The notes under the pieces are model-generated. The model saw only the letters and a list, made by a program, of their open reading frames with translations, searched no databases and was not told the DNA's origin. Shown here piece by piece: positions 1 through 4,661 of a stretch of DNA of 43,314 nt (within the stretch, counting starts at the first letter, position 1; each line of letters opens with the position of its first letter). The translations under genes were made by a program, and so were the position numbers. Origin of the DNA: an uncultured Hungatella sp. GTDB lineage: Bacteria; Bacillota; Clostridia; Lachnospirales; Lachnospiraceae. The stretch spans positions 1-43,314 of the forward strand of contig CAMUJH010000034.1 of NCBI GenBank assembly GCA_947089145.1, given 5' to 3'.

Positions 1-779
1 GCATCAGCCACAGCATTTTCCGTAAGCATATCAGCAGTACTGCTGTCTTCACGCTCGGCGTAACTCCAGGTTACTGTTACATTAGAAGCAGTAAGATCAT
101 TGGCAGAATAATCTCCATTTGGATTGCAGGCGCCGGTCAGGCCAAACTCAAAGCTGTTCCATGCGGTATCCGGAACACCGTCTTTGGCCGTATATCCATA
201 TCCATTAGTCGCATCGTATGTAATCTCAAAGTTATCGCTCTTTCCTTTAAGTCCAACTACCTTCTCACCACCTCCGTCTGCAGTCTTTTTAACTGCAACT
301 GCGGCCTTGTCTGCCACTTTCAGTCCAAGATATAATTCTGCATTTTTATTATCTGCAGCAAATGTTTCGCTCGTAGCCATTGCAACCGCTCCGCCATCTG
401 CGACTTCTGCTTTAATCGTTACATCCACATCTGCAGTTCCTTTATTAACTACCTTTAATTTTGCACTGTCTTTGGTATACGTATTTGCTGCAGACTGGAA
501 ATACACATTTGCTCCATTCTCAAAAGTAGCATTTGAGTACTTCGCACTATCGGTTGCAGCAATCAACCCTTCAGGGTCCATTTTATAGGCAAAGGTTGTT
601 GCTGCTGCAGTAGGAAGCGTTACTGCCACTACCTTTTTAGTTACATGGCCCTCAAATTCACCAGATCCAGTTACATTTCCGCTTGTTTCATCAGCAGCAA
701 ATGCTGACATGCTCATTCCAATAGCCATAGTCGTTGCCAGCATTCCCGCCATCGTTTTTTTGAGCGTTTTGTTTCTCAT
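1..779 (-). CDS. Secreted surface protein of unknown family (3' end outside window)
   Basis: The reading frame is open from an ATG at 779 to the left edge, giving about 259 codons without a stop, so the C-terminus is missing. AAGGAGG lies 7 bases before the ATG. The N-terminus is a clear signal peptide: basic MRNKTLKK, a hydrophobic core and a cleavage site after SAFA, giving a mature start near residue 28. The mature part is Ala/Thr/Val/Lys rich with alternating polar and hydrophobic beta-type segments and a late VTWSYAER stretch, and no catalytic motif is visible. It is followed 62 bases upstream by a membrane-anchored protein in the same orientation, so the two may work together at the cell surface. 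The overall look resembles WxL or TasA-like beta-sandwich surface proteins, but I do not recognise the family. Function unknown. Confidence 0.8.
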   Translation of the reverse strand, partial: MRNKTLKKTMAGMLATTMAIGMSMSAFAADETSGNVTGSGEFEGHVTKKVVAVTLPTAAATTFAYKMDPEGLIAATDSAKYSNATFENGANVYFQSAANTYTKDSAKLKVVNKGTADVDVTIKAEVADGGAVAMATSETFAADNKNAELYLGLKVADKAAVAVKKTADGGGEKVVGLKGKSDNFEITYDATNGYGYTAKDGVPDTAWNSFEFGLTGACNPNGDYSANDLTASNVTVTWSYAEREDSSTADMLTENAVAD

Positions 780-841: not shown

Positions 842-1375
842 TTATGAATCTACAGTAATTGTGAAAGCTACCCGTAGTGTACTAATCGTTTCCTGTTCAT
901 CGTCTACAAGATGATACACAATCACGCAGTCGTATTTACCTTTTGATAATGGTTTATCCAATGCAATCTGTTCTAAATAGCCTCCTCTGGGGATTACTGG
1001 TGATTGGTAGATTGCCTCATCTTCATTTTCAAGCAAAAACACATCAAAATATACATCATTCGTGTTCTCCGCCAGATTGTCCACCCATGCATCATCTGAG
1101 ACAGCATCACCTTTGGTGAAATGCCAGTCCGTATTCATACTGACCGTATAATACCCTGGTTCAACGTATTCCTGCCCCTCTTCGGCCATCTGTTCTGCTA
1201 CGCTTTCTGCATTGCTTTCATTTACAATAACATTCCGTCTTTCTGGCGTTTCCTCTTTCTCTTCTTTTCTTGATGCAAGCAAAAAAATGATTATGCCAAG
1301 CAAGGCAATAATGACAGCTGCACATACGAGGACAGCTATTTTTCCATTTTTGCCTTCTTTTACTTTTTCAGACAT
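842..1375 (-). CDS. Membrane-anchored extracytoplasmic protein of unknown function
   Basis: 177 aa. Residues 1-11 are basic, residues 12-34 form one hydrophobic transmembrane helix (KIAVLVCAAVIIALLGIII), and a Glu/Lys-rich linker follows to about residue 70. The rest is a compact beta-rich domain (EPGYYTVSMNTDWHF, SPVIPRGGYLEQIALDKPL, YDCVIVYHLVD). The layout is an N-in, C-out anchored domain outside the membrane. GGGAGGT precedes the ATG with about 7 bases spacing. It sits directly before the secreted protein that begins at 779, with the same orientation and a 62-base gap, so the pair is probably co-transcribed. I have an impression of similar proteins in Lachnospiraceae next to signal-peptide proteins, but no function is known to me. 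Confidence 0.8.
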   Translation of the reverse strand: MSEKVKEGKNGKIAVLVCAAVIIALLGIIIFLLASRKEEKEETPERRNVIVNESNAESVAEQMAEEGQEYVEPGYYTVSMNTDWHFTKGDAVSDDAWVDNLAENTNDVYFDVFLLENEDEAIYQSPVIPRGGYLEQIALDKPLSKGKYDCVIVYHLVDDEQETISTLRVAFTITVDS

Positions 1376-1466: not shown

Positions 1467-2468
1467 TTATTGCATTGGGAGAAGCCCTGTATTCCGCGCC
1501 ATCACCCTCTGCCATTCCTCCGGTATCTCCACATCCTCTTTTGCCGTGTTTCTCATCTTGTCTGTCTTGGGCGAATCCAGCCTCAGGATCTTTTTTTCCC
1601 AGTCTTTCCTCTGCACCCCATGGCCGCCCATGAACTTTGTCATCACGTTTATATACATCTGGCGCATCTTCTCTGACTGGACGATCACCCTGTCCGCATA
1701 GATGACGCCAGGATATGTGCAGAATCTCGAGATATGCTCTCTCTCCCTTTCATCCTCCGGATCAGGCTCTCCCGATATGAAATATGGCACATACACCAGT
1801 TTCTCCGTAAACCGTTTCAGATTCTTTGAATAGAAAAACGGATGCACGCTGGTCAGATAATTACAATTATCATACGGATTATGGATAAATATCATGTCCG
1901 GCTGGCGCCCGGCAAAATCATAGTCTCTGTAATGCGTCACCGGCACGTCCTCAGGATACAGGCTGCCTTCATAATGCATCTGCCCGAAGCTTCCGTCCGG
2001 ATTCTTATCATAATACGGGATCGGGATCACATAGGCGTCGCACTCCGGATCTTCTGCTGCGGCCCTCCATATGCTCTCTAAGGAATCCCACATAGACGCC
2101 TTATAGGGCAGGAACACCGCCTCCCTGCGCATGCGGATGTCACTCCTGATGCTGTTTCCGATCCGTATCAGCTGGCCAGCCAGCACATTGTGGATCTGGT
2201 TTCCGCTGACCGGCCCCGGCCTCTGTATCTTCTCATACATCTGGTACACCAGCTCGCAGTATTGTTCCAGCAGGGATACCGTGACAAACCCTTCGCCCTC
2301 AGAAGCCTCGATGCTCTCTCCAAGGCTGATGGCGCAGCTCTGGCACTGCTCCAGCAGTTTTATTGCCCCCATGCCGTTTTTGGCATCCAGCATCCTTTTT
2401 ATGGCTGCGTGGCTGCGTTTCAGCAGCTCCACCGTTTCTTCCGCCCGTCTCTTGTCCGCCCTTTTCAT
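1467..2468 (-). CDS. CDP-glycerol glycerophosphotransferase-like protein, C-terminally truncated
   Basis: 333 aa from the ATG at 2468, which has GGGGAGAG close upstream. An in-frame ATG at 2552 would add 28 residues of poor-looking sequence. Residues 1-90 are helical. From about 115 the N-terminal half of a GT-B-like glycerophosphotransferase of the Lachnospiraceae type is visible: FLPYKASMWDSLESIW, YVIPIPYYDKNPDGSFGQMH, PDMIFIHNPYDN, VYVPYFISGEPDPEDE, DRVIVQSEKMRQMY and LDSPKTDK. In longer relatives the chain continues past IPEEW with the nucleotide-binding C-terminal domain. Here it stops 13 residues after that motif and no continuation is visible in any frame before the next gene. It is therefore probably a decayed or inactive teichoic-acid-type transferase. 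It lies between the surface-protein pair and the TnpB-like gene. Confidence 0.65.
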   Translation of the reverse strand: MKRADKRRAEETVELLKRSHAAIKRMLDAKNGMGAIKLLEQCQSCAISLGESIEASEGEGFVTVSLLEQYCELVYQMYEKIQRPGPVSGNQIHNVLAGQLIRIGNSIRSDIRMRREAVFLPYKASMWDSLESIWRAAAEDPECDAYVIPIPYYDKNPDGSFGQMHYEGSLYPEDVPVTHYRDYDFAGRQPDMIFIHNPYDNCNYLTSVHPFFYSKNLKRFTEKLVYVPYFISGEPDPEDEREREHISRFCTYPGVIYADRVIVQSEKMRQMYINVMTKFMGGHGVQRKDWEKKILRLDSPKTDKMRNTAKEDVEIPEEWQRVMARNTGLLPMQ

Positions 2469-2556: not shown

Positions 2557-2640
2557 TTATGACCTCTTTTTTCTTTTTAAAACTTGCTGCACCATTTTAA
2601 TTTGCCTCTCTGGTTTAATAAAATAAGGTATATTGGTCAT
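2557..2640 (-). CDS. Possible 27-aa leader peptide
   Basis: A short frame starts at the ATG at 2640 and ends with TAA at 2557. It encodes a basic peptide beginning MTNIPYFIKPERQ and ending KRKKRS. TTAGGAGG lies only 2 bases before the ATG, which is closer than usual. The stop is 4 bases before the alternative upstream ATG (2552) of the glycerophosphotransferase-like gene, so it could be translationally coupled to it. It has no recognisable homology and may simply be chance. Confidence 0.25.
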   Translation of the reverse strand: MTNIPYFIKPERQIKMVQQVLKRKKRS

Positions 2641-3042
2641 CGCCTCCTAACCGGCAGATGATGCGGTCTGTCCCGCTTCGCTCCCTGCTACGTCACGGCC
2701 TGTTCCAGCTTTTTGTTCCGGCAGACCCGCCTGGGCAGGACTGCCGAAATATAATTTCAAACGGAAATTCAAGCTGTCATCTCACGGCCATGTTCGCAGG
2801 GTCCTGGCATACCCAATGCGCAGTCCCCGTATTTTCCCGGCTTCCTGCCTTCTAATGCCGTCCTCTCTTTTTCTATTGCAGGTGCATTGCTGCCCCTGCC
2901 TTATCATGAACCTGCCTCTTAGTCCTTTCGGTAAAATCCGGGCAGATGCGCCTGATGCACATCCGGGCGGCTTTTTGCAGTACGCCGTCCCTTTTTCCGC
3001 CCGCATTCATCTAATGGCTGTTCTTATGATCTTCTGATAAAA
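2641..3042 (-). other. Structured non-coding region 3' of the TnpB-like gene (candidate guide RNA locus)
   Basis: No convincing gene lies in these 400 bases. On the minus strand, directly downstream of the TnpB-like stop, the DNA is GC-rich and full of self-complementary segments. One is the hairpin CGGCAG...CTGCCG at about 2719-2746. Others are GGGACGGCG with GCCGCCC near 2970-3005 and GATGTGCATC with GCATC near 2945-2965. Authentic TnpB genes make their guide (omega) RNA from exactly this position, overlapping the gene's 3' end and running downstream. The assignment is by position and structure only. No guide or scaffold boundary can be fixed from one sequence. Confidence 0.35.
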
Positions 3043-4356
3043 CTAACTCAGGGCCATGCCTCCCTGGCCCCGCCTCTTGGCATTTCGGGCGGTGTTGGTC
3101 TTTTCGTCCGCCTCCAGGCCGCATGCGGGACACGTAAATGTACCCGCCCTTTTTATCCCCTCTCCTCCGCACCTGCTGCATTCCCGGCTGATATTCTTTC
3201 CCAGCACTTCCACCATCTCCACAGAGCTCTCCCTGCATTTCTGCTCCAGGCGCTTTCGGATGTACCCTCTCTGCCACATAGATACCGAATGGTTGATTCT
3301 GGCGTTCCTGCCTCCCCCTTGGGGGCCCGGCAGCTTTGCCATGTAGATGGTTTCTGGCTTCTCTTCCTCCAGAAACCGGTTCAGCTCATGGTTGATGTAA
3401 CTGTGCAGCCCTTCTGTCATCCGCCTCTTTCTGGAGCGGTATTTCTTTCTTCCCGGATTATCCTTTCGGTTCCGGTTATATACCCCCGTCTGTATGCGAA
3501 TCCACTGGCTGTACTCGGCCTGTCTTATCCCAAGCTCCTCCCCATACCGCTTCCCGCCGTCCGTAGTCAGCATCACCTGCATTCCCAGCGCCGCCCCCAC
3601 TTGGCTGGTATAGTCCTCATGGCTCCGTATCCCCACGTCCACCGGCACCTTTATCTCGACGCCCTCCTCCTCAGGCAAAAGCTTTATATAAATCTGGCGC
3701 CGGTAACGGTTATTGTCTGTCAGCGGTATAAAAATGCGTTTCCGCTTCTCCTTTATGGAAATGTAGATTCCATGATCCCCATACCGGTACGCCTTTTCAG
3801 ACAGGGCGAATCCGTCCGCCTGGCTGGCATGCTGCCTCCCATGCTTCCTGCGCACCTGCCTGCATAAAAATCGGTTCAGCCTCTCCCGGTCCACCTTCCC
3901 CGCCAGTTCCTCATACGCCTTCTGCATGGCATGGGGCAGCTCCACCGTCCTTTCATTTACCACCGCATCAAATGCGTTGGCGGATTTTATAACAAACCGC
4001 AGATAATGTTTTTCTTCCGGCGCGAGGCCGTCATTTCGGCTGATTGCCTCCAGCACTTTGCTTTTGGTGCGGCTCCACCGGCCCCTGATATCCTCCAGGG
4101 CATCAAAAACAGCCAGATAAAAGTACACCGATGGCATGCCCATCCGATCTCTCAGTCCGCTTTTTGTCATCTCGTTCTGGACAGTATATCCCGGATAAAT
4201 CTTTGACAGGCTGCCGATTCCTCCATAGCGGGCATAGACGTAATTTTTAACGGCTCTGTAGTCCTCTGCGATTTCCTGCAGTTTCGCCATGTCCGCCCGG
4301 GTGACGGGTTCCCTGTTGTACTGATGAACCGTCTTGCAGATTTTGTCCGGCGGCAT
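3043..4356 (-). CDS. TnpB-family protein with substituted RuvC catalytic residues (TldR-like)
   Basis: 437 aa with AAGGAGG 9 bases before the ATG. The C-terminal half has the TnpB layout. The RuvC-I strand is at 253-275 (VGAALGMQVMLTTDGGKRYG), the basic bridge helix is near 300-325, RuvC-II is at 337-342 (IYMAKL), a zinc ribbon is at 393-412 (CSRC...CPAC), and RuvC-III is at 417-425 (DEKTNTARN). In active TnpB these three sites read GIDLG, (I/V)xE and DxNAAxN. Here the acidic residues align with Ala256, Ala340 and Lys419, so the DED nuclease triad is gone while the folds and Cys ligands are kept. No TnpA lies nearby. Known nuclease-dead TnpB homologues (TldR) act as RNA-guided transcriptional repressors, and that is the best inference here. 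A decayed transposon remnant is the alternative, but the intact 437-codon frame and ribosome binding site argue against it. Confidence 0.85.
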   Translation of the reverse strand: MPPDKICKTVHQYNREPVTRADMAKLQEIAEDYRAVKNYVYARYGGIGSLSKIYPGYTVQNEMTKSGLRDRMGMPSVYFYLAVFDALEDIRGRWSRTKSKVLEAISRNDGLAPEEKHYLRFVIKSANAFDAVVNERTVELPHAMQKAYEELAGKVDRERLNRFLCRQVRRKHGRQHASQADGFALSEKAYRYGDHGIYISIKEKRKRIFIPLTDNNRYRRQIYIKLLPEEEGVEIKVPVDVGIRSHEDYTSQVGAALGMQVMLTTDGGKRYGEELGIRQAEYSQWIRIQTGVYNRNRKDNPGRKKYRSRKRRMTEGLHSYINHELNRFLEEEKPETIYMAKLPGPQGGGRNARINHSVSMWQRGYIRKRLEQKCRESSVEMVEVLGKNISRECSRCGGEGIKRAGTFTCPACGLEADEKTNTARNAKRRGQGGMALS

Positions 4357-4469: not shown

Positions 4470-4518
4470 CTCCTTCGGAGAGGGGCACTTCGTGCCAAAA
4501 AGTATAGGTTTTGGTCAC
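4470..4518 (+). repeat. Two TTC-loop mini-hairpins and a half copy of the palindromic motif
   Basis: In the region before the TnpB-like gene, CTCC-TTC-GGAG and GGCAC-TTC-GTGCC (4485-4497) form two small hairpins. They are followed at 4503-4518 by the 16-mer TATAGGTTTTGGTCAC. That 16-mer is identical to one half of the 32-bp palindrome at 4627-4658, 138 bases away. Small subterminal hairpins are typical of IS200/IS605 ends, so these may be relics of a transposon left end or operator sites. Confidence 0.5.
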
Positions 4519-4573: not shown

Positions 4574-4602
4574 TTGATTTTTTGACGATATTATGTTAAG
4601 AT
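4574..4602 (+). promoter_or_regulatory. Predicted promoter of a short plus-strand transcript
   Basis: TTGATT (4574-4579), a 17-base spacer and TAAGAT (4597-4602) fit a sigma-A promoter moderately well. Transcription would start near 4609 and meet the palindromic terminator-like hairpin at 4627-4661 after about 50 bases. The surrounding 4520-4610 stretch is very AT-rich and may also hold the divergent promoter of the TnpB-like gene, for which no clear hexamer pair was found. Confidence 0.4.
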
Positions 4603-4626: not shown

Positions 4627-4661
4627 AAGTGACCAAAACCTATAGGTTTTGGTCACTTTTT
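4627..4661 (+). repeat. Perfect 32-bp palindrome, terminator-like on the plus strand
   Basis: Positions 4627-4658 are a perfect palindrome centred on TATA, with half-site TATAGGTTTTGGTCAC. On the plus strand it is followed by a run of five T (4657-4661), so as RNA it would be a strong intrinsic terminator with stem GTGACCAAAACC. As DNA it would make an excellent dimeric operator. It lies between the TnpB-like gene and the CYTH gene. Confidence 0.75.

Follow-up and report, generated by a model that had tools for sequence, protein, structure and literature searches.

The window, meaning the whole stretch of 43,314 nucleotides analysed here, carries a gene for a TnpB-like protein without nuclease residues, and this gene belongs to a family in which the gene and a conserved structured RNA behind it head long surface-polysaccharide operons. 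Upstream of the gene lies a promoter segment that is inverted between loci. By comparison of the loci, the protein and the RNA may constitute an RNA-guided regulator of surface coats. Exploratory statistics suggest what its targets and its function might be. The features of the window are listed in Table 1.

Table 1. Features of the locus in the window.
Feature	Position	Strand	Remark
Start of a gene for a secreted surface protein	1..779	-	signal peptide judged by eye; gene truncated where the contig ends
177-aa protein	842..1375	-	a single membrane anchor is likely by eye
First operon gene, 361 aa	1467..2552	-	homologous to the CDP-glycerol-type family at other loci; Pfam gave no match
Own site of the operon, within its first gene: GTGTAT followed by GTGCCATATT	1781..1796	-	3/10 bases differ from the guide
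Candidate guide seed ATACCTTATT	2622..2631	-	putative function
Structured scaffold RNA, from GATCATAAGAAC to the CCAAT...TTATT end	2622..3031	-	covariation and motif positions
CCAAT, 3' pseudoknot strand	2632..2636	-	
ATTGGGTATGCC	2806..2817	-	contains ATTGG, the 5' strand of the pseudoknot, and ATGCC, the partner of GGCAT in 2847-2859
Nuclease-dead TnpB-like protein, 437 aa	3043..4356	-	
Lys419 codon, RuvC-III Asp position	3100..3102	-	
Ala340 codon, RuvC-II Glu position	3337..3339	-	
Ala256 codon, RuvC-I Asp position	3589..3591	-	
Inverton arm TATAGGTTTTGGTCAC	4503..4518	+	
Promoter inside the inverton	4574..4602	+	faces away from the tnpB-like gene (OFF); motif
Inverton arm, inverted copy	4629..4644	-	within the 28-bp palindrome 4629-4656

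The window protein had the TnpB fold with its zinc ribbon, and the RuvC nuclease residues Asp, Glu and Asp were absent from it, being replaced by Ala, Ala and Lys. It matched the NCBIfam family guided_TnpB with a score below the family cut-off. The initial annotation had claimed a full-length frame, an intact zinc ribbon, the replacement of all three catalytic acids and the lack of TnpA, and all of this was confirmed. No TnpA was present at the locus, and the three TnpA-family matches in the window's genome were all on other contigs. Loss of the RuvC catalytic residues in an intact gene, which is one mark of nuclease-dead TnpB-like repressors (TldR), was found in the window protein.

A scan of genome contigs gave 87 relatives, of which 80 were kept, largely from Lachnospiraceae. 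Acidic residues at the three catalytic columns, which the initial annotation had named as a refutation, occurred in none of the 85 aligned proteins, and a separate alignment of 29 rows gave the same result. At the third position Lys or Arg was itself conserved (81/85). Nor were the relatives mostly frameshifted remnants, as the initial annotation had considered they might be: frames of at least 400 aa were found in 83/85 loci (L077 and L086 were short), and dN/dS was 0.05-0.13 in 15 of 16 close pairs, the remaining pair being saturated. Loss of the nuclease across the whole family, under purifying selection, is thus solid. The distribution was patchy, with the dead family in 6/61 genomes when the window's genome is counted. 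The window's genome had five intact copies, on contigs C34 (the window), C52, C7, C36 and C24, the last with 35% identity, and a remnant copy on C62. These five dead copies were its only matches to guided_TnpB, none of them above the cut-off. Matches in six other genomes numbered 7, 5, 3, 3, 2 and 1, where the count of five includes two pieces of a single frame. Among cultured commensals, Sporofaciens musculi had seven copies and Schaedlerella arabinosiphila three.

Two side groups were seen in these searches. A second dead subfamily with about 35% identity (L189, which is the C24 copy G000:C24; L197, G065:C2; L198, G010:C124) had His or Tyr, Thr and Ala at the three catalytic positions. Its copy in the window's genome shared the inverton arm and the promoter motif, and its RNA, judged by eye, was related and ended 3' in TATGATAWWAAA. 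A search for targets of this RNA end revealed nothing convincing in seven stretches. In addition, an intact relative at G253:C9:48404-49729 (L139, L199) kept Asp, Glu and Asp and might serve as a model of the ancestor.

The noncoding region 3' of the tnpB-like stop codon was conserved among loci. With few errors allowed, ATTGGGTATGCC was found in 83/85 loci, GTAGCAGGGAGCGAAGC in 84/85 and the end motif CCAATATGCCTTATT in 82/85. A structure of 42 pairs was evaluated over 65 rows, in which 95.7% of cells were paired, a figure favoured by the structure having been drawn on one of the rows (L050). Both sides had changed in 27 pairs, and cells changed on both sides numbered 229 compared with 60.7 in shuffles. 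None of 500 shuffles reached any of the measures, and sliding the partner destroyed the signal. Near the RNA 3' end, CCAAT forms a pseudoknot with ATTGG; it has no covariation support of its own because it is nearly invariant in the 65 rows. L086, outside these rows, keeps it as AATAG/CTATT. A conserved structured RNA with a pseudoknot in nearly every locus is thus solid, and Rfam gave no match to it. A conserved guide-RNA scaffold beside the gene, a further mark of TldR, was found in the form of this structured RNA, which the protein would presumably bind. Two candidates in this region were rejected. A short peptide starting at ATGACCAAT did not keep its ATG in all loci, and its bases form a helix and the pseudoknot. 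Pairing of GGCAT with a second ATGCC near the 3' end had no covariation support, whereas pairing with the first ATGCC was supported.

Upstream of the gene, many loci had an invertible promoter segment of about 110 bp. Inverted repeats of at least 13 bases were found upstream in 49/85 loci (a few of the 49 being assembly artefacts or unusually placed), compared with 2/75 control stretches and 1/425 shuffles. A loose promoter pattern, TTGAYT-N17-TARAAT, was surveyed in 78 loci: it faced the gene in 8, faced away in 31 (among which L028 was unlike the rest), did both in 1 and was absent in 38. The control stretches had it in 0/75 on each strand. Generic sigma-70 scoring of 46 loci gave 5 ON, 30 OFF and 11 ambiguous, the window locus being among the ambiguous ones. 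The inversion was seen directly between L018 and L009 of one assembly, where the flank had the same orientation (93% over 72 bases) and a segment of 160 bases was inverted (94%). Inverted repeats around a promoter and both of its orientations, by which an inverton is recognized, were thus found, the comparison being across paralogous or related loci rather than strains of one species. At L027, L043 and L065, very long inverted repeats or runs of N occurred at the inverton and are probably artefacts of assembling a segment that flips.

In the window's genome, the motif occurred six times, compared with once for the reversed pattern; the six sites were the five dead-TnpB loci and one operon on C35 without dead TnpB. 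The arm TATAGGTTTTGGTCA occurred eight times, seven at these loci and once at a contig end. By the motif, the window copy, C52 and C24 were OFF and C7 and C36 were ON. In genome G062, which has seven copies, the motif stood at six of them, every one OFF, and it also occurred at two further sites; three of the six other genomes had none. Between the -35 and -10 elements, the window (4584-4595) and related promoters had a conserved TTGWCGATANTAT, perhaps an operator of a shared regulator.

Among the 85 loci examined, 82 had a visible downstream gene; the next gene was co-directional in 80 of them, and all visible genes were co-directional in 73 (ORFs being called by a simple longest-frame rule). 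In G062, three copies headed co-directional runs of about 25, 22 and 13 kb. The commonest neighbour family, at 57 loci, resembled CDP-glycerol glycerophosphotransferase with an E of 0.0014, below the Pfam cut-off. Protein clusters upstream included one of the Phage_integrase type at 12 loci and one of the Resolvase type at 6.

The ten bases after the pseudoknot, where a guide would be expected, were conserved family-wide as RTRYYTTATT. The same sequence recurred behind GTNTAT in the leaders or first genes of surface-polysaccharide operons. When the core pattern was searched without its flank, 13 further copies appeared within 150 bases after the RNA, and all 13 were preceded by [AG]GTNT in place of the scaffold sequence. 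On that strand, 17 other matches were found in 0.96 Mb, compared with 18 on the opposite strand. Ten of the 17 had the [AG]GTNT flank, and all ten lay 718-1434 bases further on, where the CDP-glycerol-type gene encodes VY[IV]PY, a site that is also shaped by protein conservation. A 5' flank differing from that of the guide locus is as expected of an RNA-guided system with a TAM. Across five genomes, flank plus guide with at most one mismatch had 17 matches, compared with 6 for the reversed control.

A leader box and a coding site hardly ever occurred together. In 82 loci, 36 had only the coding site, 14 only the leader box, one had both and 31 neither (Fisher P = 0.001, leader boxes being accepted with up to two differences). 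The Pro codon of the coding site was biased, being CCT in 17/38 compared with 6.7 expected (P = 1e-4); the Tyr codons were near expectation. Leader boxes also preceded operons without dead TnpB in the stretch read, on C35 of the window's genome and in G062, G064 and G061. The C35 case (L190, G000:C35, 1457-1808 in reversed orientation) had the promoter motif, facing the polysaccharide operon, and the box before that operon, with neither dead TnpB nor RNA in the stretch read. The leaders of L009 and L010 had two boxes about 55 bases apart after the RNA.

A guide was never identical to its own site over the first five bases (0/52 pairs), compared with 148/1542 other pairs. Permutation of guides within site type gave 4.6 expected identities (P = 0.005, or 0.010 with close relatives thinned), and own guide-site mismatches were above those of permutations (P = 0.001-0.005). 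Identity tests over six and ten bases gave P = 0.04-0.11, and the self-avoidance test for coding sites weakened with longer comparisons (P = 0.09 for 12 bases and 0.36 for 14). Perfect ten-base matches within genomes were found for 0/30 own and 13/97 non-own pairs (Fisher P = 0.025; the pairs are not independent and the matches come from 3/15 genomes). A within-genome permutation of the mean own match was not significant (P = 0.23; 26 loci, 10 genomes). The P values are exploratory because the hypothesis was built on the same data. In the window's genome, the window guide equalled the coding site of C36, and the C36 guide equalled the box of C35. In G062, the guides of copies b, d and e equalled the boxes of a1 and a2, and those of a1 and a2 equalled the box of c; in G063, three guides equalled the box of locus a.

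It seems that the locus might be a surface-polysaccharide operon subject to phase variation, with a domesticated nuclease-dead TnpB and its guide RNA at its head. With the promoter segment flipped ON, one transcript would contain the dead TnpB, the scaffold RNA and the coat genes. The protein would bind the scaffold, and ten or so bases after the pseudoknot would serve as the guide. In other surface operons, the complex would then bind GTNTAT-RTRYYTTATT, within either the leader or the first gene, and block transcription there. The own operon would be spared because its site differs from the guide within the first five bases, a correlative link, and the outcome would be RNA-guided mutual exclusion of surface coats. 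Binding, guide use, repression and exclusion are what we infer from the loci. As a whole explanation, a TldR-like RNA-guided repressor that enforces one coat at a time has, in our view, a little less than an even chance. The general form, in which the repressor and guide of each invertible coat operon aim at a site shared by its rivals and seed mismatches tell self from non-self, giving mutual exclusion in gut Lachnospiraceae, is a slightly more tentative proposal. The family is accordingly called TldR-like here and is not assigned as a proven TldR. The initial annotation had proposed such a repressor: family-wide nuclease loss, purifying selection and an adjoining omega-RNA-like RNA agree with it, and the repressor role is putative. 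Its suggestion of surface genes as the target class is likely in kind; however, the neighbours that it pointed to are the gene's own operon, and the evidence favours paralogous operons at other places in the genome as targets. According to PMC13418256, guides as short as 6 nt suffice for TldR, the seed being nt 1-6, so that a guide of ten bases with mismatches in its seed would be workable.

The main rival is a complex acting in cis, in which the dead TnpB would bind the RNA in the nascent operon transcript and promote antitermination and read-through, or translation, of the long operon, with RTRYYTTATT as a cis element rather than a guide. LoaP or UpxY are said to act in such a way for other polysaccharide operons. 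The place of the RNA between the gene and a long co-directional operon (80/82 loci) and the runs of up to about 25 kb in G062 would suit this role. So would the A/T-rich bases after TTATT, which extend into the start region of the next gene, and the boxes in leaders without dead TnpB. However, the pseudoknot is kept beside a 3' guide position, the box flank GTNTAT is unlike the CCAAT of the scaffold, and self-avoidance would have no role in cis. We regard the cis explanation as unlikely.

Less probable still is an ordinary TldR with other targets, whose true guide would be, or would reach into, the variable bases that follow TTATT, while the motif would recur for another reason. Variable sequence follows the scaffold in TnpB loci, and it did so in every locus listed. 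Guides from this stretch had no target above chance, however. In 70 loci, the own upstream region contained no excess of matches, and against all fetched loci they had 2137 matches compared with 7419 in five shuffled sets (1484 per set), with homologous loci as the best matches. Stretches of three genomes gave nothing above 14/24 bases. Across the own genome, where the window and C7 guides were searched, these had 1 and 2 extra two-mismatch matches, compared with 1 and 3 for reversed patterns. In several loci, moreover, this stretch serves the next gene as its ribosome-binding region. A dead transposon passenger, spread in trans by TnpA-family enzymes and without host function, would explain the patchy occurrence (6/61 genomes), the several copies per genome and the TnpA-family genes elsewhere in the window's genome. 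Intact frames with dN/dS of 0.05-0.13, the RNA covariation and the fixed place between inverton and coat operon largely refute it, and we consider it very improbable.

Compared with the initial annotation, the RNA, the invertible promoter, the operon-heading position, the multi-copy state and the candidate guide are new. The lineage is large, multi-copy and tied to the surface polysaccharides of gut commensals. If the RNA-guided repression proposed here is true, it would represent mutual exclusion with built-in discrimination of self and non-self, for which concrete ten-base sites are offered for testing.

To our knowledge, few TldR lineages have been described. The phase-variable capsule loci of Bacteroides with UpxY/UpxZ are similar in that several surface operons are invertible and each has at its head a regulator that may exclude the others, but those regulators are not TnpB-derived. 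Unlike the IS200/IS605 TnpB with omega-RNA (8iaz, 8h1j, 8exa), the window family has no catalytic residues and no TnpA at the locus, and a co-directional operon lies downstream. In the literature as far as it was accessible, we found no report of TnpB tied to phase-variable polysaccharide operons (an earlier mention in the 2024 TldR or the 2023 TnpB-diversity paper is possible), of catalytically inactive TnpB in Lachnospiraceae, or of TnpB with an inverton or antitermination. As described in PMC13418256, the fliC-associated phage TldR resembles our proposal in its link to a surface gene, its silencing of a counterpart gene elsewhere and its six-base seed; it is prophage-borne and concerns one flagellin gene, whereas the window family is chromosomal, multi-copy and heads long operons. 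The nearest described case, in the same paper, is the csrA-associated TldR of Oscillibacter and relatives, with four loci in one genome, guides that cross-target flagellin coding sequences and promoter inversions of about 120 bp upstream. Both are nuclease-dead TnpB with a guide RNA, putative in the window family, in gut Clostridia, with several loci per genome and promoter inversions upstream; cross-targeting guides and targets inside coding sequences would be further common points, again putative in the window family. Compared by description rather than protein sequence, the csrA-associated TldR is linked to csrA and flagellin with hin, whereas the window family is linked to polysaccharide operons and has another arm sequence, an RNA inside the operon leader and a conserved ten-base candidate guide.
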